In this document: positions 25,439-57,687 of the stretch, piece after piece | How positions within the stretch are numbered: position 1 is the first letter of the stretch | Layout: the number at the start of each line of letters is the position of its first letter | Assembly: GCA_020161845.1 (NCBI GenBank) | Contig: JAIUNK010000018.1 | Coordinates: forward strand, 1 to 64,000 | Length of the DNA stretch: 64,000 bases | Direction: 5' to 3' | DNA from: Actinomycetota bacterium | GTDB taxonomy: Bacteria; Actinomycetota; Actinomycetes; Actinomycetales; Dermatophilaceae | The notes under the pieces: generated by a model | What the model saw: only the letters and a program-made list of their open reading frames with translations | Told to the model about the DNA's origin: nothing | The model's database searches: none | Made by a program: the position numbers and the translations under genes

Positions 25439-28400
25439 ATGCACACATCACCAACGCGTTGGGCAACTATGGACGGCAACGATGCCGCCGCCCGCGTAGC
25501 CCACGCGCTGAGCGAAGTCATTGCGCTCTATCCCATCACACCCAGCTCCGCGATGGGAGAGTCCGCGGACGCCTGGAGTGCTGCCGGTCGCACGAACATC
25601 TGGGGCGCCGTCCCGGAGGTCGTGGAAATGCAGTCCGAGGCCGGCGCCGCCGGCGCGCTGCACGGCGTGGTGACCAAGGGTGTGCTCGGTTCGACGTTCA
25701 CCGCGTCGCAGGGCCTGTTGCTCATGTTGCCCAATATGTACAAGATCGCCGGCGAGCTCACGCCGGCGGTTCTCCACGTCGCCGCCCGCACGCTGGCGAC
25801 CCACGCCCTGTCGATCTTCGGCGATCACCAGGACGTGATGAGCGCCCGGATGACCGGCTGGCTGATGCTCGCCTCCTCCTCCGTGCAAGAGGCCCAGGAC
25901 CTCGCGATGGTCGCGCACGCCGCGACGCTGCGCTCCCGGATCCCCGCCATGCACTTCTTCGACGGATTCCGGACCTCCCACGAGGTCAACAAGATCCAGC
26001 TGCTGTCCAATGACGACATGCGATCCCTGATCCGCGAGGAGGACGTGGTCGCGCACCGCAAGCGGGGCCTGACCCCCGATGCGCCGACCGTCCGGGGCAC
26101 CGCGCAGAACCCGGACACGTTCTTCCAGGCGCGCGAGGCGTGCAACCTGTTCTACAACGCCGCCCCGGCGATCGTGGCCGAGTGCATGGCGGAACTGGCC
26201 ACGCTCACCGGCCGCGAATACCACCTGGTCGACTACTACGGCGCCCCCGACGCCGACCGCGTCGTCATCCTCATGGGATCGGCGTTCGGCACCACCCGCG
26301 AGACGGTGGACGCCCTCAACGCCGCCGGCGAGAAGGTCGGCGTGCTCGCCGTGCGCCTCTACCGGCCGTTCCCGACCGAGGACCTCCTAGCCGCCCTGCC
26401 GGACACCGTGCGCAGCATCGCCGTCCTGGATCGCACCAAGGAGCCGGGCGCCACCGGCGAGCCGCTGTTCCAGGACGTGCTGGTCGCGCTGGCGGAGAAC
26501 TCCGAGAAGTTCGGTGGCATGCCGCGGCTCATCGGCGGCCGCTACGGGCTCTCCAGCAAGGAATTCTCGCCGGCGATGGCGAAGGCGGTCTTCGACGAGC
26601 TCAAGGCCGAGGCGCCCAAGCCGCGCTTTACGGTGGGCATCGTCGACGACGTCACCCACCTGTCGCTGCCCTACGACCCGGACTTCCGCCCGGAGTCCGA
26701 ATCGCTGACGGCCGTCTTCTACGGCCTGGGCTCCGACGGCACCGTCGGGGCGTCGAAGAACTCGGTCAAGATCATCGCCGAGGACGACGGTCGCTACGCC
26801 CAGGGCTACTTCGTCTACGACTCCCGCAAGTCGGGTGCGACGACCGTGTCGCACCTGCGGTTCGGCAACCAGCCCATCGACGCGGCCTATCTCATCGACG
26901 AGGCCGACTTCGTCGCCGTGCACCAGTTCGAGATGCTCGGCCAGATGAGCACCGTCGACATCGCCAAGAAGGGCGCGACGGTCCTGATCAACAGCCCGTT
27001 CTCGGCCGCTGAGACGTGGGCGAACCTGCCGGTCGAGGTGCAGCAGGTCATCATCGACAAGCAACTCAAGCCCTACGTGATCAACGCCCTCGAGGTGGCT
27101 CACAAGGCCGGCCTGGGCAAACGGATCAACACGGTCATGCAACCCTGCTTCTTCTATCTCTCCGGCGTCGTGCCGCAGGAGGACGCGATCGGTCGCATCA
27201 AGACCTCCGTCGAGAAGAGCTATGGCAGCAAGCGCGGCCGCACGGTCGTCGAGCGCAACTGGGCCGCGATCGACGCCTCCATCGACGCGCTGGAGGAACT
27301 GACGGTGCCGGCAACGGCCGACGGCGAGCTGCACCGCATGCCGCCGCTGCCCGCGGGCGCTCCCGACTTCGTGCAGCAGGTCACCGCGACCATGCTGCGC
27401 GGCGAGGGCGACCTGTTGCCGGTGAGTGCCCTGCCGGTCGACGGCACCTGGCCCACCGGGACCAGCAAGTTCGAAAAGCGCGGCATCGCCGACAAGATCC
27501 CGATCTGGGACCCCAGCCTGTGCATCGACTGCGGCAAGTGCGCCGTCGTCTGCCCGCACACGGCGATCCGCATCAAGATCATGCCGACCGAGTCCCTCGA
27601 GGCGGCCCCGCAGACGCTGCAGTCGAAGAAGTACAACGACCGCGCCCTTAAGGACCACAAGCTCATCGTCCAGGTCGCTCCGGATGACTGCACCGGCTGT
27701 GGCGTCTGCGTCGACGTCTGCCCGGCCCGCAGCAAGACCGAGGTCAAGCACAAGTCGATCAACATGGAGAACCGGCGCGAGCACCTGGAGGTCGAGCGGA
27801 ACAACTTCGACTTCTTCCTCGACATCCCCGAGGTGGACCGCAGCGCCGTCCGGATGGACCAGGTCAAGGGCGTCAGCCAGCTGCAGCCCCTGTTCGAATA
27901 CAGCCTGGCCTGCTCCGGCTGTGGGGAGACCGGCTACATCAAGACGCTGACCCAGATGTTCGGCGACCGCATGGTCATCGCCAATGCGACCGGGTGCAGC
28001 TCGATCTACGGTGGCAACCTGCCGACCTCGCCGTGGACCACGAACGCCGCCGGCCGCGGCCCCGCCTGGAGCAACAGCCTCTTCGAGGACAACGCCGAGT
28101 TCGGGCTCGGCATGCGCCTCGCCTGGGAGCAGCAGAACTCCGAGGCACGGCGGTACGTCGAGCAGTTGCGCGGGGCTCTGCCCGCGGACCTGGTCGACGG
28201 CCTGCTCGGGGCGGACATGTCCGACGAGGCCGGCCTGGCCGCGCAGCGCGCCCGGGTCGAGCAGCTCAAGGCGGCCCTGGCCGGGATGGACGAGCCGGTC
28301 GCGGCGTCGCTGCTGACGCTGGCCAACGAACTGGTCGACAAGTCGATCTGGATCATCGGCGGCGACGGCTGGGCCTACGACATCGGCTACGGCGGGCTGG

Positions 28401-29083
28401 ACCACGTGCTGGCCTCCGGACGCAATGTCAACGTCCTGGTGCTGGACACGCAGGTCTACTCCAACACCGGCGGGCAGGCCTCCAAGGCCACCCCGCGCGG
28501 CGCGGCGGCCAAGTTCGCAGCCTCCGGCAAGAGCACGCCGAAGAAGGATCTCGGCATGATCGCGCAGGCCTACGGCAACGTCTACGTCGCCCAGGTCAGC
28601 CTCGGCGCCAACCAGCAGCAAACGATCCGGGCCTTCCAGGAGGCCCAGGCGTGGGACGGCCCGAGCCTGATCATCGCGTACTCCACCTGCATCGCCCACG
28701 GCATCGACATGGAGACGTCGATGACCCACCAGATCGATGCGGTGTCCACCGGCTACTGGCCGCTCTACCGGTTCCGCCCGAGCGACGAGGAGCACACCCA
28801 GCCCTTCCACCTCGACTCCAAGGCGCCGGTCGGCGCGGTCGCCGACTTCATGACCAGCGAGGCCCGGTTCGCGATGCTCAAGCGGTCGCACCCCGAGCGC
28901 GCGGACGAGCTGTTCCGGCTCGCCCAGCAGGACGTCGACGAGCGGTGGCGCTACTACAGCCAGATCGCCGGCGTGGAGCGGGTGCTCCCCGCCGACAATG
29001 TCGGGATTCCGGTGCCCGAGGCGGGGCCCGGCGACCCGACTCCGGTCCCCCAGCCCGGCAACGTCGACAAGGATGAGTCATGA
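25439..29083 (+). CDS. nifJ: Pyruvate:ferredoxin (flavodoxin) oxidoreductase, single-chain
   Basis: Homodimeric PFOR of 1214 residues that converts pyruvate and CoA to acetyl-CoA, CO2 and reduced ferredoxin. Domains in order: N-terminal TPP-pyrimidine domain (YPITPSSAMGE), domain II, gamma-like domain (FYGLGSDGTVGASKNSVKII), the two-cluster ferredoxin domain (Cys 695/698/701/705 and 751/754/757/761), and the C-terminal TPP domain (GGDGWAYDIGYGGLDH) with the proximal-cluster CSGCGETGYIKT. GAGGAGG eight bases before ATG 25439 fixes the start. It overlaps the next gene by four bases. PFOR in an actinobacterium points to anaerobic life, and it can consume the pyruvate expected from the purine pathway encoded next to it. 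Confidence 0.96.
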   Translation: MHTSPTRWATMDGNDAAARVAHALSEVIALYPITPSSAMGESADAWSAAGRTNIWGAVPEVVEMQSEAGAAGALHGVVTKGVLGSTFTASQGLLLMLPNMYKIAGELTPAVLHVAARTLATHALSIFGDHQDVMSARMTGWLMLASSSVQEAQDLAMVAHAATLRSRIPAMHFFDGFRTSHEVNKIQLLSNDDMRSLIREEDVVAHRKRGLTPDAPTVRGTAQNPDTFFQAREACNLFYNAAPAIVAECMAELATLTGREYHLVDYYGAPDADRVVILMGSAFGTTRETVDALNAAGEKVGVLAVRLYRPFPTEDLLAALPDTVRSIAVLDRTKEPGATGEPLFQDVLVALAENSEKFGGMPRLIGGRYGLSSKEFSPAMAKAVFDELKAEAPKPRFTVGIVDDVTHLSLPYDPDFRPESESLTAVFYGLGSDGTVGASKNSVKIIAEDDGRYAQGYFVYDSRKSGATTVSHLRFGNQPIDAAYLIDEADFVAVHQFEMLGQMSTVDIAKKGATVLINSPFSAAETWANLPVEVQQVIIDKQLKPYVINALEVAHKAGLGKRINTVMQPCFFYLSGVVPQEDAIGRIKTSVEKSYGSKRGRTVVERNWAAIDASIDALEELTVPATADGELHRMPPLPAGAPDFVQQVTATMLRGEGDLLPVSALPVDGTWPTGTSKFEKRGIADKIPIWDPSLCIDCGKCAVVCPHTAIRIKIMPTESLEAAPQTLQSKKYNDRALKDHKLIVQVAPDDCTGCGVCVDVCPARSKTEVKHKSINMENRREHLEVERNNFDFFLDIPEVDRSAVRMDQVKGVSQLQPLFEYSLACSGCGETGYIKTLTQMFGDRMVIANATGCSSIYGGNLPTSPWTTNAAGRGPAWSNSLFEDNAEFGLGMRLAWEQQNSEARRYVEQLRGALPADLVDGLLGADMSDEAGLAAQRARVEQLKAALAGMDEPVAASLLTLANELVDKSIWIIGGDGWAYDIGYGGLDHVLASGRNVNVLVLDTQVYSNTGGQASKATPRGAAAKFAASGKSTPKKDLGMIAQAYGNVYVAQVSLGANQQQTIRAFQEAQAWDGPSLIIAYSTCIAHGIDMETSMTHQIDAVSTGYWPLYRFRPSDEEHTQPFHLDSKAPVGAVADFMTSEARFAMLKRSHPERADELFRLAQQDVDERWRYYSQIAGVERVLPADNVGIPVPEAGPGDPTPVPQPGNVDKDES

Positions 29084-30117
29084 CCGCCACCTCCGACCCG
29101 CAGACCAGTGCCGGGCCTGACCTGGCCACCACCTACCTGGGCCTGCAGCTGTCCGGCCCGGTGATCGCCTCGGCCAACCCGACCACCCGCACCGTCGAGT
29201 CGATGCTCGCGTTGCAGGAGGCCGGCGCCGCCGCCGTGGTCCTGCCCAGCCTCTTCCAGGAGGAGGTCGAGGCCGAGGAGATGGCCATCTTCGACCTGAT
29301 GGACATGGGTGGCGAGTTCGCCGAGTTCGATTCCGCGCCATTGGCGGACGTCGATACCTCGGGACTGGGCACGGACCGGCACATCCGGCTGGTCCGGGAG
29401 GCCAAGCAGGCGCTGTCCATCCCGGTGATCGCCAGCGTCAACGGCACCCAGCCGGGCGGTTGGTCGCGTTACGCGACGATCCTGGCCGAAGCCGGGGCGG
29501 ACGCGATCGAGCTCAACCTGTACGGCGTGAACACCGACCCGGATCTCGACGCGAACACGATGGAGACGCAATACCTGTCCATCATCGAGTCGGTTCGGTC
29601 CGTCGTCTCGGTGCCGCTGGCCGTCAAACTCAGCCAGAACTACATGTCGCTGTCGAACTTCGCCAAGCGGGCCCAGGAGGCCGGGGCCGATGGCCTGGTG
29701 TTGTTCAACCGCTTCCTCGGGCCGGACATCGACCTCGAGGAGTTCCAGGTGCGGCCGAAGGTGGCCCTGTCCACCTCGGGTGAGCTGCGGGTCCGGATGC
29801 GCTGGATCGCCATCCTGCGCAGCCAGCTGCCCACCATCGGGCTGGCCGCCACCGGCGGCGTGCACACGGCCGAGGACGTCATCAAGACCCTCATGGTCGG
29901 TGCGGACGTGGCGTGCGTGGCCTCTGCGTTGCTGCAGCGCGGCCCTGGCGTCATGACCGAGCTGGTCGGGGGCGCCCGCGCGTGGATGGCCGAGCGCGAT
30001 TACGCCTCGGTGCAACAGCTGCGCGGCAGCATGAGTTCGACGTCGGTGGACAACCCCGGCGAATTCGAGCGCGCCCAGTACGTCGAGGCCATCAAGTCCT
30101 GGACGCCGGACCGCTGA
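29080..30117 (+). CDS. Dihydroorotate-dehydrogenase-like flavoprotein
   Basis: A 345-residue FMN TIM-barrel of the DHOD family: LQLSGPVIASANPTTRT at the start, SVNGTQPGGW, AIELNLYGVNTDP, PLAVKLSQNY and the phosphate-binding AATGGVHTAEDV ... GADVACVASALLQRG. Proteins of this subgroup often sit beside nifJ, and their true substrate is not established. The ATGA overlap with nifJ means tight coupling. It is unlikely to serve pyrimidine synthesis, as no other pyr gene is near; an electron-transfer role with ferredoxin or in pyrimidine/purine ring reduction is possible. Confidence 0.8.
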   Translation: MTATSDPQTSAGPDLATTYLGLQLSGPVIASANPTTRTVESMLALQEAGAAAVVLPSLFQEEVEAEEMAIFDLMDMGGEFAEFDSAPLADVDTSGLGTDRHIRLVREAKQALSIPVIASVNGTQPGGWSRYATILAEAGADAIELNLYGVNTDPDLDANTMETQYLSIIESVRSVVSVPLAVKLSQNYMSLSNFAKRAQEAGADGLVLFNRFLGPDIDLEEFQVRPKVALSTSGELRVRMRWIAILRSQLPTIGLAATGGVHTAEDVIKTLMVGADVACVASALLQRGPGVMTELVGGARAWMAERDYASVQQLRGSMSSTSVDNPGEFERAQYVEAIKSWTPDR

Positions 30118-30183: not shown

Positions 30184-30924
30184 TCAGGCGACGTCGTTCA
30201 TGTCGCCGTAGGCGACCGGGTTCTGACTGTTGTTGTCGAGCGGATCCGGCTGACCGATGAACGGGTGGTCCGGCAAAGGTTGGCCGATGATGGCGATACG
30301 ATCGCCGTGGATGGTGAGACCGTCGATCGTCCCGACCATGCGCACCTGGCCCGCGTGGGCCACGATCAGCCATTGGGAGGCGATGACGCGGTCCGCCTGC
30401 ATCCGCCACACGCCGCGGCCGCGCAGCCAGGTCTCATGCGGCGAGGCGCCCTCGCGGAAGCCCACCCGTTCGCGGCCCAGGGCGTCGTTGGTGACGGCGG
30501 GCTGATCCGCGCCGAGCCGGACCCGCACCAATTGCGGGCGTGGCACGGTGGGGTACGCCGAGGGCACGCCGAGCTGCTCCAGGATCTCGCGCTCGCGGGA
30601 CTGCTTGGACTGCGAGGACTGGGTCAACACGCTGGCGATGACCGATTGGTGCTGGCCATCCAGGGAGTCCCACCGGGCGCCGAAGGTCTGGTCCGGCTGG
30701 CGCACATCGGGATTGAAGCCGGCGATCTCGGCGCAGATGCCGAGGAAGGCCCGGTCACCACTGGAGAGCACGTTCTGGCTCGCCAGGTAGGCGATCTTGG
30801 CCCAGTCGATCTGCGGCTCGGGGCCCTCGCCGGTGACGAACGCCGCTGCCTTCGCAAGCACCGAGGGCGCACTGGCCAGGATCGCGGCAGCGTCCTCGCG
30901 GGCTTGCGTCAAGGCGAAATCCAT
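30184..30924 (-). CDS. Conserved-looking protein of unknown function inside the purine cluster
   Basis: A soluble 246-residue protein starting MDFALTQAREDAAAILASAP. It has an N-terminal helical half (KIAYLASQNVLSSGDRAFLGICAEIAG, VLTQSSQSKQSREREILEQL) and a beta-rich C-terminal half (WRMQADRVIASQWLIVAH, VRMVGTIDGLTIHGDRIAIIG). There is no signal peptide, membrane helix or known catalytic motif, and I do not recognise the family. It is transcribed opposite to ygeW, and the 14-bp purine motif (30973-30986) lies 49 bp before its start, so both genes may share the regulator. No good ribosome binding site precedes the ATG. Confidence 0.7.
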   Translation of the reverse strand: MDFALTQAREDAAAILASAPSVLAKAAAFVTGEGPEPQIDWAKIAYLASQNVLSSGDRAFLGICAEIAGFNPDVRQPDQTFGARWDSLDGQHQSVIASVLTQSSQSKQSREREILEQLGVPSAYPTVPRPQLVRVRLGADQPAVTNDALGRERVGFREGASPHETWLRGRGVWRMQADRVIASQWLIVAHAGQVRMVGTIDGLTIHGDRIAIIGQPLPDHPFIGQPDPLDNNSQNPVAYGDMNDVA

Positions 30925-31114: not shown

Positions 31115-32305
31115 ATGGACGTTCGTGAGCAGATCGCCAAGCTACAGGGGCTGGACTTCTCGGGGCTCTACCAGGACGACTTCCTGCTGACCTGGGACAA
31201 GACCGAGGACGAGATTCGTGCGGTGCTTGCCGTCGCAGACGCCCTGCGGGGGCTGCGCCAGCAGAACAAGAGCTGCCGCATCTTCGACTCCGGCCTGGGC
31301 ATCTCCCTGTTCCGCGACAACTCGACCCGGACCCGGTTCTCGTATGCCTCGGCATGCAACTTCCTGGGCCTCGAGGAGCAGGTCTTCGACGAGGGCAAGT
31401 CGCAGGTCGCGCACGGCGAGACCGTCATGGAGACGGCCAACATGATCTCGTTCATGGCCGACGTGATCGGGATCCGCGATGACATGTACATCGGGAAGGG
31501 CCACACCTACATGAAGGCCTTCTCGGAGTACGTGCAGATGGGGCACGCCGAGGGCGTCCTGGAGCAGCGGCCCACGCTGGTCAGCCTGCAGTGCGACATC
31601 GACCACCCGACCCAGTCCACCGCCGACCTGCTGCACCTGATCCACACCTTCGGGTCGCTGGAGAACCTGCGCGGCAAGAAGCTGGCCATGAGCTGGGCCT
31701 ACTCCCCCAGCTACGGCAAGCCGCTGTCCGTGCCGCAGGGCATGATCGGCCTGATGTCCCGGTTCGGCATGGACATCGTGCTGGCCCACCCGCAGGGCTA
31801 CGACGTGATGAGCGAGACCCGCGATGTGGCGACGAAGTTCGCCGCCGAGAGCGGCGGCTCGTTCCGGGTCACGCACGACATGGCGGACGCCTTCGAGGGC
31901 GCCGACATCGTCTGCCCCAAGAGCTGGGCGCCGTTCGCCGCCATGGAGGAGCGCACCGAGCTCTACGGCAACGGCGACACCGACGGCATCAAGGCCCTGG
32001 AGAAGCGGCTGCTGGCCCAGAACGCCGAGTTCACCGACTGGACCACGACCGAAGAGCTGATGGCCTCCACCAAGGACGGCAAGGGCCTCTACATGCACCC
32101 GCTGCCCGCCGACATCACCGGCTTGTCGTGCAAGCAGGGCGAGGTCGATGAGAGCGTGTTCAGCCGCTACCGCGTCCCGATGTACGCCGAGGCCAGCAAC
32201 AAGCCCTATTCGATCGCGGCGATGATCTTCCTGCAGAAGGTCAAGGACCCGATCGCCAAGCTCAACGACCTGCTGGCCGACGCAGCGCCCCGCTGGCGGC
32301 AGTGA
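31115..32305 (+). CDS. ygeW: Knotted carbamoyltransferase YgeW
   Basis: A 396-residue member of the aspartate/ornithine carbamoyltransferase superfamily. The carbamoyl-phosphate site is NSTRTRFS, the HPTQ-type block is [14 protein letters not shown], and the long C-terminal part contains [15 protein letters not shown]. YgeW-type enzymes are distinct from OTCase and ATCase and belong to purine/urate clusters. There they are thought to work toward carbamoyl phosphate, releasing it from a carbamoylated diamino acid. First gene of the ygeW-ygeY-arcC-PLP enzyme operon. AAGGAG and GAGG lie upstream of ATG 31115. Confidence 0.93.
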
Positions 32306-32432: not shown

Positions 32433-33680
32433 ATGGCCGAGATCGACTACGGACGCGTCAACGAGGTTGCGGAGAGCTACCGCGCCGACATGACCCGTTT
32501 CCTGCGCGCTCTCATCAAGAACAAGGGCACCAGCTGCGAGGAAGAGGCCAAGAGCCGCCTCATCGTCGCCGAGATGGACAAGCTGGGCTATGACCGCACC
32601 CGCATCGACGGCCTGGGCAGCGCCATCGGCTACCTCGGCACCGGTGGCAAGGTCGTCTGCTTCGACGGCCACATCGACACCGTCGGCGTCGGCAACATCG
32701 ACAACTGGAAGTTCGACCCGTTCGAGGGCATGGAGGACGACGAGGTCATCGGTGGCCGCGGCGGCTCCGACCAGCTCGGCGGCGTCGTCTCGGCGGTCTA
32801 CGGCGGCAAGATCGCCAAGGACCTCGGGCTGCTCTCCGACGAGTTCACCTACATGGTGACCGGCACCGTGCAGGAAGAGGACTGCGACGGGATGTGCTGG
32901 CTCTACCTGATCGAGGAGGAGAACGAGCGTCCCGACCTGGTCGTCTCCACCGAGCCGACCGACCACGGCATCTACCGCGGCCACCGTGGCCGGATGGAGA
33001 TCCGCGTCGAGGTCGACGGCGTCTCCTGCCACGGCTCGGCCCCCGAGCGCGGCGACAACGCGATCTACAAGATGGCCGAGATCCTGCTGGAGATCCGGGA
33101 CCTCAACGACAAGCTGCACGTCGATGAGTTCCTCGGCAAGGGCACCGTGACCACCTCCGAGATCTTCTTCACCAGCCCGTCGCGCTGCGCCGTGGCCGAC
33201 TCCTGCGCGATCTCCCTGGACCGCCGCCTCACCGACGGCGAGACCTGGGAGGGCGCGATCGAGGAGATCAAGGCGCTGCCCACCGTGCAGAAGTGGGGCG
33301 CCCGGGTGTTCTGCTACGACTACAAGAGCACCGCGTGGACCGGCACGGAATACGGCCAGCAGTGCTACTTCCCGACATGGGTCATCCCGGAGGACTCCCC
33401 CGAGGTCCAGTCCGCCGTCGAAGTTCACCGCGGCCTGTTCGGGGAGCCCCGCGTCGACAAGTGGACCTTCTCCACCAACGGCGTGGCGACCGCGGGTCGG
33501 CACCACATCCCGACCATCGGTTTCGGCCCCGGCAAGGAGGCCCAGGCGCACGCCCCGAACGAGCTGCAGTGGAAGGACGACCTGGTCCGCTGCGCCGCGC
33601 TGTACGCCTGCCTGCCGACCCTGTACGTCGAGCACATGACCCACGCCGGCGACGCCAAGACGGTCGTCAGCCAGCTCTGA
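32433..33680 (+). CDS. ygeY: YgeY-family M20-type metallohydrolase
   Basis: A 415-residue ArgE/DapE/M20 hydrolase. Metal-binding motifs are FDGHIDTVG (His, Asp), [11 protein letters not shown] (bridging Asp) and [10 protein letters not shown] (catalytic Glu pair), with the C-terminal His in AQAHAPNE. YgeY is defined by its occurrence in selenium-type molybdenum hydroxylase and purine clusters and probably hydrolyses an amide or ureido intermediate of ring breakdown. It follows ygeW by 127 bp and GAAGGAGAA precedes the ATG. Confidence 0.93.
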
Positions 33681-35998: not shown

Positions 35999-36013
35999 CG
36001 CTTTGCTGCAGCG

Positions 36014-36880: not shown

Positions 36881-36894
36881 AGCCACAGCTTATG
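36878..36894. promoter_or_regulatory. Possible LysR binding site
   Basis: CATAGCCACAGCTTATG has CATA/TATG ends around a nine-base centre and covers the start codon of the LysR gene, 14 bp before the MFS start. Size and dyad fit LysR boxes; evidence is position and symmetry only. Confidence 0.35.
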
Positions 36895-36907
36895 GTCGAA
36901 CCGCGCG

Positions 36908-38218: not shown

Positions 38219-38285
38219 GCGGCGCGCACTCGACGGATCTGAGGGGTCCTGCCCGCGGCCCCAGGAGGGCCGCGGCCGGACCTTT

Positions 38286-38316
38286 CATCCATAGTGCATG
38301 TCATGCACTATGGATG
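38286..38316. promoter_or_regulatory. Operator of the toxin-antitoxin operon
   Basis: A perfect 31-bp inverted repeat: CATCCATAGTGCATG, one central T (38301), then its exact complement. It ends two bases before the antitoxin ATG. Toxin-antitoxin complexes of the VapBC type repress their own operon at such sites. Confidence 0.75.
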
Positions 38317-38317
38317 C

Positions 38318-38976: not shown

Positions 38977-39009
38977 CAGCCTGGAGCATTCGAGTCACGG
39001 AGGCGGCGA

Positions 39010-45572: not shown

Positions 45573-45642
45573 CTGGGGTCCTGCTCTCCCCCAAGCCGAT
45601 GCCCCCGCGCTGAAACGCCCAGCGACCGAAGAGCGGTATGAC

Positions 45643-45681
45643 AGCGGTACGCCGGGGAACGGCGCTCCCCGGCGTACCGCT
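45643..45681. terminator. Bidirectional terminator between HNH gene and xanthine dehydrogenase
   Basis: A perfect 16-bp stem (AGCGGTACGCCGGGGA) with a seven-base loop, followed on the plus strand by TGCTTCTGT. It separates two convergent genes and marks the end of the second purine arm. Confidence 0.8.
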
Positions 45682-45697
45682 TGCTTCTGTGAGCGCC

Positions 45698-48370: not shown

Positions 48371-49765
48371 TCAGCGGATGTCGGAATCGGGCAGGGCGCG
48401 CGAGACGAACCGTCCGGTCGGCTCCCCCGCCGCCAGGTCACCACCGCGCACCAGGTGCTCCCCCCGCAGGAACACGTCGCGCACGCGGCCGCGCAGGGGC
48501 AACCCCTCGTACGGCGTGTGGTCCGTCGCGTCGTGCAGGTCCGCGTGCCGGACGAGGTGCTCGCCGTTCGGATCGTAGACGACGATATCGGCGTCGCTGC
48601 CTGGAGCAAGCACCCCCTTGCGCGGGTAGAGGCCGAAGTACTTCGCCGCATTGGTCGAGGTGACCTCGACGAACCGCTCCGGGGTGAGCCGCCCCGCGGC
48701 CACGCCGTACGTGTAGAGCAGGCCCATCCGCAGCTCCAGCCCGGGACCGCCGTTGGGCGTGTGGGCGAAGTCGGCCGCCGCGGCCTTCTGGCCCGCCAGG
48801 GTGAACGAGCAGTGGTCGGTGCCGACGAACTGGATGGTCCCGTCGGCCAGCGCGTCCCAGAGCAGCTCCTGATCGGCCGGCGTGCGCAGCGGCGGGCTCA
48901 TCACATAGGCCCGGCTCGCCAGCTCATCGGTGTCGGGGTCGCCATAGCGCGAGCCGTCCAGCACCAGGTATTGCGGGCAGGTCTCCACGACCATCCGGGC
49001 GCCGCGCTCCCGGGCGGCGCGGATCTCGGCCAACGAGCCGCCGGAGGACAGATGCACCACGTAATGCAGCGCCTCCAGCGGGGCCGCGATCACCCCGAGC
49101 CGGTTGATCGCCTCCCGTTCGAGTTCCGCCGGCCGGGAGGCCTGGTGATAGTACGGCGTGCGCCGGCCGGCCGAGACGTACTCGCGCACCAGCGCGTCGA
49201 CGAGGCGCCCGTTCTCGCAGTGGAACCCGATCGTCGTGCCCAGCCGCTCGCTGGCCTGCAGCGCCGCCCGGATCTCGTCGTCCTCCACCATCATGGAACC
49301 CCGGTAGGCCATGTAGAGCTTGAACGAGGTCACCCCGGCCGCGACGATGTCGGCCATCTGATCCGCGAACTCAGGCCGCCATTCGGTCATGGCCAGGTGG
49401 AACCCGTAGTCGCAGGACGACACGCCGGCAGCCTTCGCGTGCCAGCGGTCCAACCCGAACGCCAGCGACTCCCCATGGAACTGGGTGGCGAAGTCCAGCA
49501 CGGTCGTCGTGCCCCCGGCCAGCGCCGATCGCGTCCCGCTGGCGAAGTCATCCGCCGTGGTCAGCCCCGGCCCGCACTCCAGATCCAGGTGGGTGTGGGT
49601 GTCGATGCCGCCGGGCAGCAGCAGGCACCCGGTGCAGTCGAGCACCGGCTCCCCCGAGTCGGGCTCGAGGTCGCCCAGCTCGACGACGACGCCGTCGCGC
49701 AGGCGCAGGTCGGCTCGCCGCGACCCCTCCGCCGCAACCACCGTCCCACCGCGCAACAGCGTCAT
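48371..49765 (-). CDS. hyuA: Dihydropyrimidinase / hydantoinase
   Basis: A 464-residue cyclic amidohydrolase. The dinuclear metal site is complete: HTHLD, the carboxylated Lys in SFKLYMAY, GFHCENG, VVHLSS and the Asp of VGTDHCSF. HyuA/HydA members of purine clusters open a five- or six-membered ring amide. It lies between ssnA (47 bp) and the dehydrogenase (27 bp) in one operon. The exact substrate cannot be read from the sequence; an imidazolone or ureido ring is likely. Confidence 0.92.
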   Translation of the reverse strand: MTLLRGGTVVAAEGSRRADLRLRDGVVVELGDLEPDSGEPVLDCTGCLLLPGGIDTHTHLDLECGPGLTTADDFASGTRSALAGGTTTVLDFATQFHGESLAFGLDRWHAKAAGVSSCDYGFHLAMTEWRPEFADQMADIVAAGVTSFKLYMAYRGSMMVEDDEIRAALQASERLGTTIGFHCENGRLVDALVREYVSAGRRTPYYHQASRPAELEREAINRLGVIAAPLEALHYVVHLSSGGSLAEIRAARERGARMVVETCPQYLVLDGSRYGDPDTDELASRAYVMSPPLRTPADQELLWDALADGTIQFVGTDHCSFTLAGQKAAAADFAHTPNGGPGLELRMGLLYTYGVAAGRLTPERFVEVTSTNAAKYFGLYPRKGVLAPGSDADIVVYDPNGEHLVRHADLHDATDHTPYEGLPLRGRVRDVFLRGEHLVRGGDLAAGEPTGRFVSRALPDSDIR

Positions 49766-49812: not shown

Positions 49813-51138
49813 TCACATCTGCGCCCAGACCCGGGGCGCGCGCTCGCGAGAGCGGGCCAGGATCCGGTGCTCGTCGACGGTCTGGATCTTGCGGTCCCGC
49901 ATCACCCAGCGGCCGGCGACCATCGTGTCGTTGGTCATCGCCCCGCTCATCCCGAACAGGATGTGGCCGACGGTGTTGGCGCCGGTCATCGGGGTCTGCG
50001 GGACATACCACACGGTGATGAGGTCGGCGTAGGCGCCCGGCTTGAGCACGCCGACCGGCTTGCTCCAGAACTTGCCGGCGATGGCCGGGTTGTTCTGGAA
50101 GAGCAGCGTGGCGGCCTCGCCGAAGCCGACCGTCGGGTCCTGCAACCGGTGGCTCTGGGCGATCTTGACCACCGAAGCGGACTGGAACATGTCGGCGAGA
50201 TAGGCGTCGGTGCCCAGCCCGACCCGGATGCCCTTGCGCAGCTGCTCGGTCACCTTGGTCAGGCCCACCGCGTTGCCCATGTTGGAGTGCGGGTTGGTGA
50301 CGACCGAGGTGTCGGTGTCCTTGATGAGGTCCATCTCGGCCTCGTTGATGTGCACGCAGTGCACCAGGATCGACTCCGGTCCCAGCATCCCGAAGTCGGC
50401 GAATCGCTGCACGATCCGCTGGCGCGTCAAGCCCTCGCAGTGCGGCTCGTCCTCGGGGCCCTCGGCGGTGTGCACGTGGAACCCACCGGGCACCCCTGCA
50501 TCGCGGACGGCCGCCGCGCAGCGTTCCAGGGTCTGCTGGCTGACCGTGAACGAGGCGTGGATGCCGAACAGCCCGTGGATCAGGTCCTGGCTGCCGTCGT
50601 TCGCCTCCATCATGAAGGCGATGTTCTCCTCGATCTGCTGATCCAGGATCTCGGCCCCGTCGCGATCCGAGGTCTCGTAGCACAGGCTCGCGCGGATCCC
50701 CAGCTCACGAGCGGCCTTGGCCTGCGCGGCCAGGGAGCCCGGTACGGCGTGCGGGCTGGAGTGGTGGTCGATGACCGTGGTGACCCCGGCCCGGATCGAC
50801 TCCAGGAACGTGGTGGACGTGTTGAGCTCGACGTCCTCGGTCTCCAGCAAGCGGTCCAGCTTCCACCACATCTTCTCCAGCACGCCGGTGAAGGTGCTGC
50901 CCTGCTCGCTGGGGGCCAATCCCCGCGCATAGTGGCTGTAGGCGTGCGTGTGCGCGTTGATCAGGCCGGGCATGATGACCCGTCCGGCGACGTCGACGGT
51001 CTCCTCGCCGGGGCTCGCGGGCAGGTCGGCCGCCGGGCCGACGGCGACGATCTGGTCGCCCTCGATCCGGACGGCGCCGTTCTCGATGAACGGGTTCTCG
51101 GGGTCGTTGGTGATGACGGGTCCGCCGGTGATGATCAT
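49813..51138 (-). CDS. ssnA: SsnA-type putative aminohydrolase
   Basis: A 441-residue amidohydrolase of the guanine-deaminase/chlorohydrolase branch. Metal ligands are in NAHTHAYSHYARG, FHVHTAEG, VHCVHINE and GLGTDAYLADMF. SsnA homologues are fixed members of urate/purine clusters. The ATG at 51138 overlaps the ygfK stop by four bases, so the long upstream open frame is only read-through. Deamination or ring hydrolysis of a purine-derived intermediate is the likely role. Confidence 0.92.
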   Translation of the reverse strand: MIITGGPVITNDPENPFIENGAVRIEGDQIVAVGPAADLPASPGEETVDVAGRVIMPGLINAHTHAYSHYARGLAPSEQGSTFTGVLEKMWWKLDRLLETEDVELNTSTTFLESIRAGVTTVIDHHSSPHAVPGSLAAQAKAARELGIRASLCYETSDRDGAEILDQQIEENIAFMMEANDGSQDLIHGLFGIHASFTVSQQTLERCAAAVRDAGVPGGFHVHTAEGPEDEPHCEGLTRQRIVQRFADFGMLGPESILVHCVHINEAEMDLIKDTDTSVVTNPHSNMGNAVGLTKVTEQLRKGIRVGLGTDAYLADMFQSASVVKIAQSHRLQDPTVGFGEAATLLFQNNPAIAGKFWSKPVGVLKPGAYADLITVWYVPQTPMTGANTVGHILFGMSGAMTNDTMVAGRWVMRDRKIQTVDEHRILARSRERAPRVWAQM

Positions 51139-54100
51139 CGGGCGTACACCTCCGCAGCGCTCGACTCGGTGGGGGCCAGCAGGTAGGAATAGCTGCCTTC
51201 GAGGACGTCCAGGACGCGCGTCATCTCGTCGGTCATCTTGTTGGCGGTCTGGAAGTCCTGCGCCTGGCTGTGTTCGAAGACGTCGCCGCCGGGCATCCGC
51301 ACCAGATAGGTGTGCTCCCCCAACGGCAGAAAGCCGGGGTTGGTGGAGTCGTCGAAGTCCTCGCGGGTCCAGAACACCGTGAGCTTGTCCTTGTAGGGCA
51401 GCCCGGCGTGCGGGCAGAACGTGCCGCAGGTGTTGCACTCGTTGCACAGGCCGTCGATGTGCACGATCTGGCGTGGGTCGCTGAATCCCGGCACCGTGAT
51501 CGCGACGTTGGCGCGGTTCGGGCACACCTCGGTGCAGATCTCGCAGATGTCCTGGCAGGACAGGCACCGGGCGCCCTCGGCCTTGCCGTTGATCTCGGCG
51601 ATGAGCAGACCGCGCCGCTGGTAGACCTGCTCGGCCGGCTGGTGCACGGTCGGGTGCGGGCGTGCGTAGTCGGGGGTGATGCCCTGCGCGGTCAGGATGG
51701 CCTTGCAGGCCACCTTGGCGTCCCCGATGGCCTCGACGATCGTCGCCGGGCCGCGCCGGCCGTCGCCGATGACGTACACGCCGGGCACGGTGGACTGGAA
51801 GGTCTTGTCGAGCACCGGGCGGCCGCGGCCGTCGAGCGTGATGCCGTTCCTGGTGTACGGCTCGGCCAGCAGGGTCGCGCCGGTTGCGCCGACGACGGTG
51901 TCGAACGCCATGTCGGTGAACTCGCCGGTGCCGGTGACGGACCGGCGACCGCTCGCGTCGAGCTCGGACAGGCTCATCTTCTCCACGCGCAGCGTCGTGC
52001 CGTCGTAGCTGATCGGGGCGAGCAGCTGGTGCATCGTCAAGCCTTCGCCGCGCACCAGGTTGACCTCGTGCTGGGTCGCCGGCATGTTCGGCTCGGTGCG
52101 CCGGTAGACCAGCTCGGCCACCTCGCAGTCCGGCAGCCGGGAGGCGGTGCGGACGCAGTCCATCGCCACGTCGCCGGCGCCGATGACCGCGACCCGCTTG
52201 CCGTAGTCGGTCTTGCCCTCGTTCTGCGTGGCCCACAGGAAGTCGAACGCGTCGACGATGTGTTCCCCGCCCTCACGCACCGGGCTCGGGCACTTGCCCC
52301 AGGCCCCGACGGCGACGATGACGTGGCTGTAGGACTTCTTCAGTTCGGCGACGTCGAAGTCGGGGTCGGCGTTGAAGTGGAACCGTACGCCGAGAGCGGT
52401 GGCCAGCTCGTAGTCGCGGGTGATCTGGTCTCGGTCGATGCGGAACTTCGGAATGATGTATTCGACCACGCCGTACGGGCCCTCGAGCTTTTCGAAGACG
52501 TCGACGTCCATCCCGTTGCGCCGCAGGTAGATCGCCGAGGCGATGCCGGCGGGGCCGGCCCCGATGATCGCGACCTTGTCGGTCGTGGCCAGCTCGGGGG
52601 CCTTGGTGGCCTTGATGTAGTCGTCCTGCGCGCCGTCCGAGGCGGTCAGCTTCACGCCGCGCATGTCGATCGAGATGTCGTAGTCGAGGCGGGTGCAGTG
52701 CTCGCGGCACTGCTCCGAGCACAGCACGCCGGTGATCGTGGGGGCCGTGTTGTCCAGCGCGATCACGTCGAAGGCCTCGGCGAACCGGCCCTCGGAGGTC
52801 AGCGTGAGGTATTCCGGGATCTGCTGCTCGATGGGGCAACCGCCGTGCTCACAGGGCGCCTTGTAGCAGTCCGTCAGGGGCAGCGCCGAGGCGGTCTTGC
52901 GGGAGCGGATCTTCTCCCGCCAGCGCTTGTGGTAGCGCTCGCCGGCCGACTCATCGAAGATCGCCTCGACGGCCGCGTCGAGCTTGGCCACGTCGATCCC
53001 GGCATAGTCGGTCATCACCGCGGCGGTCTCGTCGGCCATCTGGTTGAACCGCAGCACTCCGCCCGGCTTGAGGATCGTCGTGGCGACCGTCACCGGCTGG
53101 ATGCCCGTCTGCAGCACCTCGCGGATGTTGAAGGCGTCGATGCCGCCGGAGAACGAGATCGGCAGCGTTCCGTCGAACGCGTGCGAGAGCTTCTGCGCCA
53201 GCGACAGGGAGAGCACGTAGAGGCTGCGCCCCGACATGTACATCTCCTCGCTCGGCAACTCCCCCGCGGCGACCTGCACCGGGAAGGTATTGGTCAGCTT
53301 GACGCCGAACCGCAGGCCCAGCTCGCCGGCGGTGGCGGTGAGCCGCTGGAACATCGGTACGGCGTCCTCGAACTGCAGGTCGGCCTTGAAGTGATGGTCG
53401 TCGAACGTGATGTAGTCGAAGCCGAGCCGATCCAGCGCCTCGCGGGCGTAGTCGTAGCCGAGCATCGTGGGGTTGCACTTGACGAAGGTGTTGAAGCCCT
53501 TCTCCTTGAGCAGGTAGTCCGCGATCCGCTCGATCTCGTCCGCCGGGCAGCCGTGCAGCGTCGAGAGCGTGCACGACCGGGTGATCCGCGGGTCGAGGGC
53601 GTCCAGGTCCTCCTGGGTGAAGTGTGCGAACTCCGGCAAGCGCTGCTGCACCCAGGCGTAGCACTCAGCCCAGATCGGGGTGGTGCTCGCGTCCTTCATG
53701 CCCTCCAGGTAGGTGTCGACCTTGGCGCCCTTGATGCCCTCCAGGTCATAACCGACGCTGATGTTGTAAGCGACGTCGTGCACCCCACCCAGGCCCAGCT
53801 CCTTGCCGAAGACGGCGATCGCGAAGTAGGCCTTGATGTATTCGTCGAAGGCCTGCGGCACGGTCAGCTCGGTGGACCACTCGCAGTTGTAACCCTCGTC
53901 GGTGGCCTCGATGCACGGCTTGGCCACGGCGTGCCGGATCTCCTCGCCGTCCATCTTCTGCACGGTCTTGAGTTCCATGAACCGGGCGCCGGTCAGGTAG
54001 GCGACCAGGATGTTGTTGGCCAGCTGGGTCTGCGGCCCCGCGGCCGGGCCGAGCGGCAACGCCAGCCGGTCCCCAAAGGCGTTGGTGATGATCCGAGGTT

Positions 54101-54218
54101 CCGTGGCGGTCCAGAAGTGATCGCGACGGACCCCGAAGATCGCGTCGTCGACGCGGAGCTCATCTCGCGCCCACGTCATCAGGTGGTCGAAGCTGAGGGG
54201 TCGCATGATGTCGCCCAT
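51135..54218 (-). CDS. ygfK: YgfK: putative selenate reductase / purine-pathway flavoprotein
   Basis: A 1027-residue multidomain redox protein. It starts with a DHOD-like FMN barrel half (PLGPAAGPQTQLANN, CNPTMLGYDYARE), continues with a cysteine-rich GltD-type linker (CEHGGCPIEQQ, CSEQCREHC) and two nucleotide-binding motifs (AIIGAGPAGIASAIYL, AVIGAGDVAMDC). It ends with two ferredoxin-like cysteine groups (CLSCQDICEICTEVCPN and CNECNTCGTFCPH). The old name reflects a link to selenate; in urate clusters it is required for purine breakdown, probably as the reductase. Coupled to ssnA by ATGA; six bases after the permease stop. Confidence 0.93.
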   Translation of the reverse strand: MGDIMRPLSFDHLMTWARDELRVDDAIFGVRRDHFWTATEPRIITNAFGDRLALPLGPAAGPQTQLANNILVAYLTGARFMELKTVQKMDGEEIRHAVAKPCIEATDEGYNCEWSTELTVPQAFDEYIKAYFAIAVFGKELGLGGVHDVAYNISVGYDLEGIKGAKVDTYLEGMKDASTTPIWAECYAWVQQRLPEFAHFTQEDLDALDPRITRSCTLSTLHGCPADEIERIADYLLKEKGFNTFVKCNPTMLGYDYAREALDRLGFDYITFDDHHFKADLQFEDAVPMFQRLTATAGELGLRFGVKLTNTFPVQVAAGELPSEEMYMSGRSLYVLSLSLAQKLSHAFDGTLPISFSGGIDAFNIREVLQTGIQPVTVATTILKPGGVLRFNQMADETAAVMTDYAGIDVAKLDAAVEAIFDESAGERYHKRWREKIRSRKTASALPLTDCYKAPCEHGGCPIEQQIPEYLTLTSEGRFAEAFDVIALDNTAPTITGVLCSEQCREHCTRLDYDISIDMRGVKLTASDGAQDDYIKATKAPELATTDKVAIIGAGPAGIASAIYLRRNGMDVDVFEKLEGPYGVVEYIIPKFRIDRDQITRDYELATALGVRFHFNADPDFDVAELKKSYSHVIVAVGAWGKCPSPVREGGEHIVDAFDFLWATQNEGKTDYGKRVAVIGAGDVAMDCVRTASRLPDCEVAELVYRRTEPNMPATQHEVNLVRGEGLTMHQLLAPISYDGTTLRVEKMSLSELDASGRRSVTGTGEFTDMAFDTVVGATGATLLAEPYTRNGITLDGRGRPVLDKTFQSTVPGVYVIGDGRRGPATIVEAIGDAKVACKAILTAQGITPDYARPHPTVHQPAEQVYQRRGLLIAEINGKAEGARCLSCQDICEICTEVCPNRANVAITVPGFSDPRQIVHIDGLCNECNTCGTFCPHAGLPYKDKLTVFWTREDFDDSTNPGFLPLGEHTYLVRMPGGDVFEHSQAQDFQTANKMTDEMTRVLDVLEGSYSYLLAPTESSAAEVYAR

Positions 54219-54224: not shown

Positions 54225-55736
54225 TCACTGTCCTTCGTTGTGGGTGGGAGCCGGTCGGGTCGCCTCTCGAGGAGGCACGGGGGGCGTTCCGTCGCCAGCG
54301 GATGCGGATGGTGCACGGTCGGGAAGGTCGGCCAAGACCTCGTGATCGATGGCGCGAGCCGGCCCGTGCGCCTGCAGGGTCGCCACGCTGGAGTCGCCGC
54401 GTCGACCGATCATGTTGAAGAACACGTTCAGGGTGAAGGCCACAATGGCACACGCGCTGATGCCCGACTCGAGGACCAGCTCGGCGGTCGTGGGTAGCCG
54501 GCTCCAGAAGCCCGGCGCCACAGCCGGAATGAGGCCGAAGCCGAGCGCTGTCGCCACGATGAGCAGGTTGTTGGTGCCGTCGTACGCGACTTTCGACAAG
54601 GTGCGGATTCCGGAGGCGGCAACCGAACCGAAGAGGACGATGCCGGCACCGCCGAGCACCGGCTGCGGGATCATGTTGATCAATGCGGCCAGCCACGGCG
54701 ACAGCCCGAGAACGGCCATCAGACCGCCGCCGACGGCCACGACGTACCGGCTCTTGATTCCCGTCAACGCGACCAGGCCGACGTTCTGGGCGAACGCCGT
54801 GGCCGGGAAGGTATTGAAGACGGGGGCCACGGCGGAACTCAGCATGTCCGCTCGCAGGCCGTCGGCGACCCGGTGCCCGGGGCAGTCGGTCCCGACGATC
54901 TCGGAGACGGCCACGATGTCGGCAGTCGTCTCCACCATGATGACGATGAAGACGACGACCATGGACAAGATCGCCCCGAAGCTGAACAGCGGGGTGCCGA
55001 AGGCGAACGGCGTAGGGGCAGCCAGCGGCGAGATCACCGACAGGTCGGGGGTGTGCAGCTTGCCCATGGGAATGGCCGCCACCGTCCCGAACACGAGGCC
55101 GAGCAGGATCGCCATGCGCGCGAACCTCTTGACAGTGCTCAGCGCGAGGACGAAGGCCAGGGTGATCATGCCGAGGGCGAGATTCCCCAGATCCGCGAAC
55201 CCGGGATTGGGTGCCCCGTTGATGGTCGGTCGTCCGGCGATCCAGCCGGCCGCCACCGGCAGCAGCGAGGCCCCGATCACCGTGATCACCGTTCCCGTCA
55301 CCACTGGCGGGAAGAACCTGATGATCTGAGCGAAGAGCGGCACGATGGCGAAGGCCACGACGCCGGCGGCGATGCAGGCGCCAAACGCCCGCCGCAGTCC
55401 AAGGGTGCCGTCGGTCCCGATGACGGCGAGCACCGTGGAGACCGAGGCGAAGGTCAATCCCTGCACGAGCGGGAGCTGGGAGCCGAGGTAGGGGACCCCC
55501 AGGGCTTGCAGGAGCGTGGCGAGGCCGCTGACGAAGAGCGCGCTGGCCACGAGCAGTCCGCGGCCGGCGGCGTCGAGGCCTGCCGCCTCGCCGATGAGGA
55601 GAGGCACCGCGATGACACCGCCCACCATGGACAGGATGTGCTGCAGGCCATAGCCCACGAGCGCTCCCATCGGGAGCATCTCATCCTCAGGTCGCTGCGG
55701 CATCGCGCGCCGAAGCACGGGGGTGGCGGGTGGCAA
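54225..55736 (-). CDS. NCS2-family xanthine/uracil (urate) permease
   Basis: A 503-residue permease with about 14 hydrophobic segments. NCS2 signatures are QHILSMVGGVIAVPLL, the substrate-site Glu in VETTADIVAVSEI, and FAQNVGLVALTGIKSRYV. It resembles the UacT/XanQ branch, so xanthine or urate is the likely cargo. Start: AAGGAGGTCGAC lies directly before TTG 55736, giving MPPATPVLRRAMPQ; the ATG five codons upstream contains that ribosome site and has none of its own. First gene of the second-arm operon. Confidence 0.9.
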   Translation of the reverse strand: MPPATPVLRRAMPQRPEDEMLPMGALVGYGLQHILSMVGGVIAVPLLIGEAAGLDAAGRGLLVASALFVSGLATLLQALGVPYLGSQLPLVQGLTFASVSTVLAVIGTDGTLGLRRAFGACIAAGVVAFAIVPLFAQIIRFFPPVVTGTVITVIGASLLPVAAGWIAGRPTINGAPNPGFADLGNLALGMITLAFVLALSTVKRFARMAILLGLVFGTVAAIPMGKLHTPDLSVISPLAAPTPFAFGTPLFSFGAILSMVVVFIVIMVETTADIVAVSEIVGTDCPGHRVADGLRADMLSSAVAPVFNTFPATAFAQNVGLVALTGIKSRYVVAVGGGLMAVLGLSPWLAALINMIPQPVLGGAGIVLFGSVAASGIRTLSKVAYDGTNNLLIVATALGFGLIPAVAPGFWSRLPTTAELVLESGISACAIVAFTLNVFFNMIGRRGDSSVATLQAHGPARAIDHEVLADLPDRAPSASAGDGTPPVPPREATRPAPTHNEGQ

Positions 55737-55804
55737 GTCGACCTCCTTCATCGGAGCCGTGTACTCGACCTGAGGTGCTGCTAACAGTACCAAAGGACAC
55801 CGAG

Positions 55805-55920: not shown

Positions 55921-56475
55921 CTAGCAGTAGTCGCGATCGCTGCCGTCTGCGAGATCGTCGCACGGGATGACCCGCAGGTCAGGATGCCCATCCAGGTAAC
56001 GTCCAGCACCCCGATCACCCGCCGTGTTGCGGAGCGCCGCATCCCAATGCCGACGACCGAGTACGACGGGATGCCCAGGCGCCCCGTCGTACGAGGCACG
56101 CCGCAGACTCCCCGGTCCGGCCCCCGCCACCAGCCGAGCGACGACATCAGCCCCGACGTCGGGAAGGTCCACCAGATGCAGCACGGCGACCGCCGCCTCC
56201 GTGTCCTCGGCCGCGAGCAATCCGGCCCGCAGGGAGGTCCCCATCCCCGCCGCCCAGTCGGGATTCGCGATGGCGAGAGCGGGTGGCGGCATCACGACCT
56301 GGGCGGCACCCAGCACGACGTACACGGGCCGGCAGCCCCCCGCGTCGAGCGCCGCGACCGCGGCCCGCAGCCAGGCACCGTCCTCGGCGAGCACCTTCGG
56401 CATGCCGAATCGGCGCCCGGCGCCCGCGGCGAGGACGATGCCGACGGCGGACGGAACCGGCGTTACTTTGTCCAT
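55921..56475 (-). CDS. mocA: MocA-like molybdenum cofactor cytidylyl/nucleotidyltransferase
   Basis: A 184-residue nucleotidyltransferase starting MDKVTPVPSAVGIVLAAGAG. The LAAGAGRRFGMPK loop binds the nucleotide and LHLVDLPDVGADVV holds the metal-binding Asp. MocA adds CMP to molybdopterin, the form used by xanthine-dehydrogenase-type enzymes. It sits upstream of the permease operon on the same strand and diverges from xdhC. Its ATG falls inside the 14-bp motif, so initiation could be directly blocked. Confidence 0.85.
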   Translation of the reverse strand: MDKVTPVPSAVGIVLAAGAGRRFGMPKVLAEDGAWLRAAVAALDAGGCRPVYVVLGAAQVVMPPPALAIANPDWAAGMGTSLRAGLLAAEDTEAAVAVLHLVDLPDVGADVVARLVAGAGPGSLRRASYDGAPGHPVVLGRRHWDAALRNTAGDRGAGRYLDGHPDLRVIPCDDLADGSDRDYC

Positions 56476-56478: not shown

Positions 56479-56550
56479 CTCGGTAACATCGGAGGAGGAG
56501 CTGTCCCCGGCCGGGGGCAGCGGGCCGGGTGGCAGCGGGAGGAGCCGGTC

Positions 56551-57687
56551 ATGAAGGACATCATCCGTGACCTCGCACAGTGGAGCGCCGCCGGTGTCGA
56601 CTTCGCGGTGGCCACCGTCGTACGGACGTGGCACTCGGCCCCCCGACCGGTGGGCGCCTCGATGGCCGTGGCCGGCACCGGTGAGGTCGTCGGCAGTGTG
56701 TCGGGGGGTTGCGTCGAGGGGGCGGTGGTCGAGGCGGCGACCGAGGTGCTCGGCAGCGGGATCCCCCGGCTGCTGCACTACGGGGTGGCCGACTCCTCCG
56801 CCTACGAAGTCGGGCTGACCTGCGGTGGGACCATCGAATTGGTGCTGACGCGGGCGGACGACACGCTGCGCACGGCCATCCTCACGCTCGCCGAGGCCGT
56901 CGAGAACCGGGCGCCGCTCGCCCTGGCCACCGTGGTGGACGGGCTGCCGGATCGCCTCGGCGCGCGCCTGCTCGTGACCCCGACCGGGGCCGCCGCGCAG
57001 GGGTCGTTCGGGGACGCCGGGCTCGACCACGCGGTCGCGCAGGAGGCGGTGGGCCGGCTGGCCGCCGGCGAGAGCGGTCTGCTCCAGCTGGGGCCGCAGG
57101 GGCAGCGCCGGATGACCGATCTCAGCGTGTTCGTGGAGGCCTACGCCCCGCCGCCGCGGATGCTGGTCTTCGGCGCCATCGACTTCGCCGCCGCCGTCGC
57201 GCGGATGGGCAAGTTCCTCGGCTACCGGGTCACGGTCTGCGACGCGCGGCCCATCTTCGCCACGGCGCGGCGATTCCCGGACGCCGACGAGGTGGTCGTC
57301 GACTGGCCACACCGCTTCCTCGACCAGGTGGACCTCGACGAGCGCACCGTCATCTGCGTGCTCACCCACGATCCCAAGTTCGACGTCCCCCTGCTGGTCA
57401 AGGCGCTGCGGCGACCAGCTCGCTATATCGGGGCGATGGGCAGCCGGCGGACCCACCTGGATCGGCTCGACAAGCTGCGCGCCGAGGGGATGACGGAGGC
57501 GGAGCTGGCCCGGCTGCGCTCCCCGATCGGGCTGGACCTGGGAGGCCGTACGCCGGAGGAGACCGCCGTCTCGATCGCGGCCGAGATCGTCGCCCTGAGC
57601 TGGAACGGCACCGGGCGCCCGCTGACCGCCTTGGACGCCCCCATCCACCGCGAGTCGCTTGCCACGACGGACCCGGCGCGCCGCTGA
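56551..57687 (+). CDS. xdhC: XdhC/CoxI-family molybdenum hydroxylase maturation protein
   Basis: A 378-residue protein. The N-terminal XdhC/CoxI domain has SVSGGCVEGAVVEAA and the conserved Cys of VGLTCGGTIEL. The C-terminal Rossmann domain has MLVFGAIDFAAAVARMGKFL and AMGSRRTHLDRLDKLRAEG. XdhC binds the molybdenum cofactor, protects it during sulfuration and inserts it into the dehydrogenase. GGGAGGAG precedes ATG 56551. It is divergent from mocA and completes the maturation set for the dehydrogenase at 45.7 kb. Confidence 0.93.
   Translation: MKDIIRDLAQWSAAGVDFAVATVVRTWHSAPRPVGASMAVAGTGEVVGSVSGGCVEGAVVEAATEVLGSGIPRLLHYGVADSSAYEVGLTCGGTIELVLTRADDTLRTAILTLAEAVENRAPLALATVVDGLPDRLGARLLVTPTGAAAQGSFGDAGLDHAVAQEAVGRLAAGESGLLQLGPQGQRRMTDLSVFVEAYAPPPRMLVFGAIDFAAAVARMGKFLGYRVTVCDARPIFATARRFPDADEVVVDWPHRFLDQVDLDERTVICVLTHDPKFDVPLLVKALRRPARYIGAMGSRRTHLDRLDKLRAEGMTEAELARLRSPIGLDLGGRTPEETAVSIAAEIVALSWNGTGRPLTALDAPIHRESLATTDPARR

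Follow-up and report, generated by a model that had tools for sequence, protein, structure and literature searches.

A rare Austwickia variant of the reductive uric-acid gene cluster with a putative lyase replacement and ferredoxin supply

The window analysed here was a 64,000-nucleotide stretch of contig C77 (71% G+C) from a genome of 4.39 Mb (82 contigs, 4.4% contamination) assigned to the genus Austwickia of the Dermatophilaceae. Gene identities, operon layout and distribution were observed directly. Two convergent operons, carrying the genes of the reductive uric-acid pathway, were found in the window (Table 1). The plus-strand run consisted of ygeW, ygeY, a carbamate kinase gene and a gene for a pyridoxal phosphate (PLP) enzyme. 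The minus-strand run descended from about 56475 to 45698 and comprised mocA, an NCS2 permease gene, ygfK, ssnA, hyuA and a molybdo-hydroxylase gene. The frames of both operons were open, the cluster genes overlapped or were closely spaced, and the adjacent ygfK and ssnA shared overlapping frames. It was concluded that this locus probably encodes a rare actinobacterial form of the pathway, in which a different PLP enzyme would replace the usual lyase and a pyruvate:ferredoxin/flavodoxin oxidoreductase (PFOR) would supply electrons through ferredoxin.

Table 1. Features of the uric-acid locus, by position in the window. Bit scores are given as score/curated family cut-off; identities are to the E. 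coli protein. pLDDT, predicted local distance difference test; aa, amino acids; Mo, molybdenum; Fe-S, iron-sulfur; FAD, flavin adenine dinucleotide; DHODH, dihydroorotate dehydrogenase.
Feature	Coordinates	Strand	Evidence
PFOR	25397..29083	+	TIGR02176 1707/911
DHODH-like flavoprotein	29080..30117	+	PRK07565 383/303
Protein of 246 aa, divergent from ygeW	30184..30924	-	conserved in relatives
YgeW, knotted carbamoyltransferase	31115..32305	+	TIGR03316 705/500; 62.7% identity
YgeY, M20-family hydrolase	32433..33680	+	TIGR03526 595/321.5; 62.0% identity
Carbamate kinase, YqeA/ArcC-like	33792..34724	+	PRK12352 313.5/266; 46.9% identity to YqeA
PLP enzyme (PALP fold), proposed lyase	34724..35998	+	PF00291 130 bits; model pLDDT 89
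Mo/Fe-S hydroxylase, TIGR03311 type, no FAD domain, proposed urate reductase	45698..48343	-	TIGR03311 1208/830
HyuA, hydantoinase	48371..49765	-	TIGR02033 528/393; 40.2% identity
SsnA, aminohydrolase	49813..51138	-	PRK07203 532/444; TIGR03314 476/455.5; 32.6% identity
YgfK, Fe-S flavoprotein reductase	51135..54218	-	TIGR03315 1236/835; 40.5% identity
NCS2 permease, UacT-like	54225..55793 (start perhaps near 55751)	-	pbuX TIGR03173 436/414
MocA-like cytidylyltransferase	55921..56475 (start inferred)	-	TIGR03310 55.5 bits at 55993-56439, cut-off 186 missed
XdhC-family maturation factor, divergent from mocA	56548..57687	+	PF13478 and PF02625

The curated cut-offs were passed by YgeW, YgeY, SsnA, YgfK, HyuA, the TIGR03311-type enzyme and PFOR, with scores far above chance. 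The carbamate kinase passed one of two models, its score for TIGR00746 (arcC) being 312/358. The permease was closer to UacT than to XanQ (39.6% vs 28.2% identity). His, Asp, Lys and Cys patterns were kept across the pathway enzymes, among them the HxH motif and other His and Asp residues of SsnA and 18 Cys of YgfK; we take these residues to be catalytic or metal-binding.

An earlier reading of the same stretch from its letters alone (the sequence-only reading) had named homologues of most of these genes and described a complete system for the degradation of xanthine or urate. Each named homologue was recovered as an open frame at its position, and the gene set matched that described for the reductive uric-acid pathway (PMC12507026). 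The claim of completeness has to be limited: the cluster carried a PLP enzyme different from YgeX and no YgeX orthologue, a YgeX-type lyase being encoded elsewhere in the genome. The published pathway is entered at urate, not at xanthine (PMC12507026). Growth without oxygen on such a compound as carbon, nitrogen and energy source, with short-chain acids as products, stays a prediction. The PLP enzyme had not been named, nor had PFOR and the DHODH-like gene, which lie within the coordinates of that reading. As for the claim that uricase was lacking, PF01014 was absent from the whole source genome, while the same search was positive in 2 of 14 control genomes; the genome-wide search did not extend to other urate oxidases or to genes for allantoinase and ureidoglycolate. 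The support for the earlier interpretation is partial: it was right in outline, but the Mo enzyme is of another type, a different PLP enzyme holds the YgeX slot and the published entry is at urate.

In 2025 Li et al. reconstituted the pathway in vitro and showed the reduction of urate to 2,8-dioxopurine (yanthine) by XdhD-YgfM, the formation of ureidomethyl-hydantoin by YgfK with SsnA, its opening by HyuA to 2,3-diureidopropionate, the stripping of the ureido groups by YgeW and YgeY and the release of pyruvate by YgeX (PMC12507026). The chemistry proposed here up to pyruvate was carried over from the published E. coli and C. difficile homologues. Urate would be taken up by the UacT-like permease and reduced to yanthine by the Mo/Fe-S enzyme, and yanthine would be dearomatised by YgfK. 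SsnA and HyuA would open both rings to give 2,3-diureidopropionate, and the two ureido groups would be removed by YgeW and YgeY, the predicted product of YgeW being carbamoyl phosphate, from which the carbamate kinase could form ATP. The PLP enzyme would then act as a lyase releasing pyruvate and ammonia, and PFOR would convert pyruvate to acetyl-CoA while reducing ferredoxin. Percudani leaves open in which order the ureido groups are cleaved and which electron donor serves the clostridial enzyme XdhAC, the donor being called undiscovered (PMC12990295).

With the E. coli cluster (ygeW-ygeX-ygeY-hyuA-yqeA and ygfK-ssnA-ygfM-xdhD; NC_000913; PMC12507026) the window had in common YgeW, YgeY, HyuA, a YqeA-type kinase, YgfK, SsnA, a UacT-like permease, MocA and an XdhC-family protein. 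It differed in having no match to YgfM, YqeC or YgeV at E ≤ 1e-3, a Mo enzyme of another type and a PLP enzyme other than YgeX, and in adding PFOR, the DHODH-like protein and the 246-aa protein. By the description given in the same paper, the uricolytic cluster of C. difficile resembles the window in a Mo enzyme that works without YgfM, a suggested ferredoxin donor, SsnA, HyuA and YgeY, whereas the window has YgfK in place of UacX and YgeW with carbamate kinase in place of UacY (PMC12507026). A further likeness, again by description, is XdhAC of Clostridium sporogenes, a single Fe-S and Mo protein proposed as a urate reducer (PMC12990295).

No YgeX-type diaminopropionate lyase was found in the cluster of the window. 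Its slot was held by the PF00291 enzyme, the ATG of which overlapped the stop codon of the carbamate kinase gene and which closed the ygeW operon. Orthology of this enzyme with YgeX was rejected, since no YgeX model, such as TIGR01747, TIGR03528 or NF006058, appeared among its NCBIfam matches at E ≤ 0.001. Local identity to YgeX-type lyases was 24-29%, and 25.5% over 141 aa (E 6.5e-4) to E. coli YgeX itself. The enzyme was assigned to the beta-family (fold type II) of PLP enzymes, a fold by which a lyase, a synthase and a dehydratase were indistinguishable.

The distribution of YgeW and of this PLP enzyme family, termed PALP here and counted at E ≤ 1e-30, was surveyed in 186 genomes of the family. 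YgeW exceeded its cut-off in seven of them: four Austwickia (G000, the genome of the window, and G010, G011 and G012) and three other genomes (G151, G180 and G182). PALP was present in six genomes, all of them YgeW carriers, and in each of the four Austwickia it was the last gene of the series that begins with ygeW, ygeY and the kinase gene. The seventh carrier, G182, had a YgeX-type lyase (NF006058 323/276) directly 3' of its Mo enzyme, and at the same position in G180, which belongs to the genus of G182, PALP was found together with a second PLP-fold gene, PALP2. We infer that in most of these genomes the lyase reaction is carried out by the PLP enzyme, which is not YgeX.

The Mo enzyme had been labelled xdhD in the sequence-only reading. 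This label had to be dropped: E. coli XdhD, which we take to be a member of TIGR03313, showed 24.3% identity, and the score of the window enzyme for TIGR03313 was 220/1102. Residue E606 fell in a gap of an alignment of 27% identity and is hence little informative. Only Fe-S and molybdenum cofactor domains were detected by Pfam. The family name of TIGR03311, selenium-dependent xanthine dehydrogenase, and the missing YgfM-type subunit would fit an enzyme that works oxidatively on xanthine in a cluster for purine nitrogen salvage rather than anaerobic energy metabolism. We consider this unlikely: YgfK, SsnA and YgeW act after yanthine, not after xanthine (PMC12507026), and clostridial XdhAC is reported as a urate reductase (PMC12990295). 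Moreover, a second locus of xanthine dehydrogenase (XDH) type, predicted to be able to oxidise xanthine, was found in every Austwickia searched (G000 C59, G010 C33, G011 C1 and G012 C56).

The use of selenium may vary among the carriers. The selD gene exceeded its cut-off in G000, where selA and selB adjoined it, and in G010 and G011. It did not in G012, G151, G180 and G182, in which a TIGR03311-type enzyme was present in the cluster; the clustered Mo enzyme of G180 was interrupted by a contig end and scored below the cut-off. In a Propionibacterium metagenome-assembled genome (MAG; G572), selD, yedF and a yqeB-like gene were observed near hyuA, ssnA and ygfK (L180 1206-3800).

Without YgfM, the Mo enzyme of the window is of the kind for which ferredoxin was suggested by Li et al. 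(PMC12507026). The linkage of PFOR and the DHODH-like gene was compared among YgeW-carrying genomes only. Both genes lay 5' of ygeW in G000, G010 and G011, the three Austwickia with sequence there (the contig of G012 stopped short of this position), and between ygfK and ygeW in G572, the DHODH-like gene following PFOR in each case. Identity to the PFOR of the window was 80.7% in G010, 81.5% in G011 and 71.6% in G572. It is proposed from this linkage that ferredoxin reduced by PFOR feeds the FAD-less Mo enzyme.

Beyond the family, a class sample of 394 genomes, drawn evenly, gave a single YgeW match at E ≤ 1e-80, in the window's own genome. Within Austwickia the cluster was syntenic in G010, G011 and G012, with 64-92% identity per gene and 52-57% for mocA/xdhC. 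It is hardly credible that the cluster is a contaminant or a decaying relic of the assembly; the contamination estimate of G000 and its size, 0.8-0.9 Mb above that of the other three genomes of the genus, would allow this, but open frames and conserved synteny speak against it. In a YgeW tree of 11 rows, G572 grouped with Austwickia (96/99), apart from G151, G180 and G182 of the same family as the latter, which suggests lateral transfer, provided that the MAG bears the right name. For the phylum the pathway is no novelty, since SsnA was already reported in Actinomycetota (PMC12507026) and Actinobacteria are listed among gut purine degraders in a review (PMC12823916). No title or abstract on the pathway in Austwickia was found in literature searches that covered part of the Austwickia literature.

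Several observations weigh against the proposed form of the pathway, and those on the PLP enzyme lend themselves to another explanation. The core pathway would stand, while the operonic enzyme would have some other job, perhaps with PALP2, and the last step would fall to a YgeX-type or other PLP lyase encoded elsewhere. This is a real possibility, though not the outcome we expect. The genome of the window does encode an unlinked YgeX-type lyase on contig C13 (NF006058 295.6/276) and so need not rely on the PLP enzyme. A PALP2-family gene (two members were confirmed as PF00291) was present in 71 of 79 PALP loci, 76 of which had no cluster gene in the stretch examined, and PALP2 occurred in the same six of the seven YgeW genomes as PALP; in each of the four Austwickia it lay apart from the cluster. 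YgeW was absent at E ≤ 1e-60 from 35 of the 42 PALP genomes searched, the relatives being mostly Acidimicrobiia. In G572 the PLP gene was missing from the 39 kb around ygeW and sat on another contig without purine genes; in the PALP tree G180 stood on a long branch that leaves a separate origin unsure. On the other side, PALP within the family is restricted to YgeW carriers and closes the operon in every Austwickia, and in the five PALP genomes other than that of the window the best score for TIGR01747 was at most 54.3 bits.

The remaining adverse points concern the electron supply and the integrity of the cluster. PFOR had no match in the stretches examined of G151, G180 and G182, and E. coli YgfK draws on NAD(P)H rather than ferredoxin (PMC12507026). 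In G010 and G011 the cluster lacked hyuA and the gene of the Mo enzyme, and in G012 (C56; L064, L067) SelA passed its cut-off and SelD did not. Gene absences in G151 and G180 are weak because these genomes are only 88% and 79% complete, respectively. The replaced lyase and the PFOR supply are nevertheless retained here as the probable arrangement. A broader proposal is doubtful when taken as a whole: PALP would constitute a second class of lyases, acting on diaminopropionate or on its ureido precursor, derived from a threonine-synthase-like family of Acidimicrobiia and perhaps recruited twice (in Austwickia and in G180), PFOR would be the physiological donor, via ferredoxin, of an FAD-less urate reductase, this branch could work without selenium, as the genomes lacking selD hint, and Austwickia would feed on host uric acid.

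Two cofactor genes had also been named in the sequence-only reading. XdhC carried both Pfam domains and MocA a weak TIGR03310 match; both fell below the NCBIfam cut-offs, which for XdhC were NF045664 (208/350) and TIGR02964 (93/162). Homologues of mocA adjoined the NCS2 gene in G010, G011 and G012 at 52-56% identity. The 1 kb ahead of ygeW, at one time thought empty, was found to hold the conserved gene of the 246-aa protein. Its homologues were 59-89% identical in six further genomes and 57% identical in G572, and its gene accompanied the cluster across three genera as well as in that MAG. It had no match in Pfam, NCBIfam or, with its profile, the PDB, and its structure model had a mean pLDDT of 50. 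It is possibly the regulator of the cluster. The two operons converged on 9.7 kb (35999-45697) of other genes, namely a LysR gene, an MFS-like gene, a FitA-like antitoxin and PIN-domain pair (38294-38976), a pirin gene, a histidine kinase and response regulator and a DUF222 gene; the LysR, MFS, pirin and DUF222 proteins were unmatched in the stretches examined of the relatives.

Related arrangements were observed elsewhere. A paralogue of the Mo enzyme, of 47-48% identity, was found outside the ygeW cluster in G010 and G011, accompanied by yqeB- and yqeC-like genes (L079 6948-9629; L080 15305-17986), and no TIGR03311-type gene was matched in the 39 kb examined of G572. In G182 the genes for the Mo enzyme, HyuA, SsnA and YgfK were present twice (L035 and L078); at L035 the genes that follow carbamate kinase encode another XDH, with Fe-S and YgfM-like components, and a guanine-deaminase-like protein. 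In the JPMR MAG G573, whose YgeW match was identical to that of G151, PALP had as neighbours genes for a guanine-deaminase-like protein, an XDH and a permease with 49.7% identity to UacT (L083 1030-10845). The two dissimilar genes PALP2 and PALP recurred together in Acidimicrobiia (e.g. L085 8275-11212). Three Acidimicrobiia carried a trio of a distant YgeW-like protein (340-352 bits, below the cut-off), an M20 hydrolase and a carbamate kinase (L182 9563-13191; L183 4317-7963; L184 5421-9040), perhaps another pathway for ureido compounds.

The cluster is genuine and represents a rare form of a pathway already known, reductive urate degradation, in a small corner of a class in which YgeW is rare (1/394). 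It points to two ideas: a different PLP enzyme may take over the step of YgeX, and ferredoxin reduced by PFOR may be the donor for FAD-less urate reductases. PF00291, used as the label for YgeX in a published survey of SsnA neighbourhoods (PMC12507026, Fig. 3 legend), cannot separate this PLP enzyme from YgeX. Austwickia is associated with disease in reptiles and crows; the hosts described for A. chelonae are crocodile lizards, a snapping turtle, a king cobra, bearded dragons and hooded crows (PMC6420803). Uric acid is the excretory product of many reptiles and birds, and we hypothesise that the cluster lets Austwickia feed on uric acid from its hosts.

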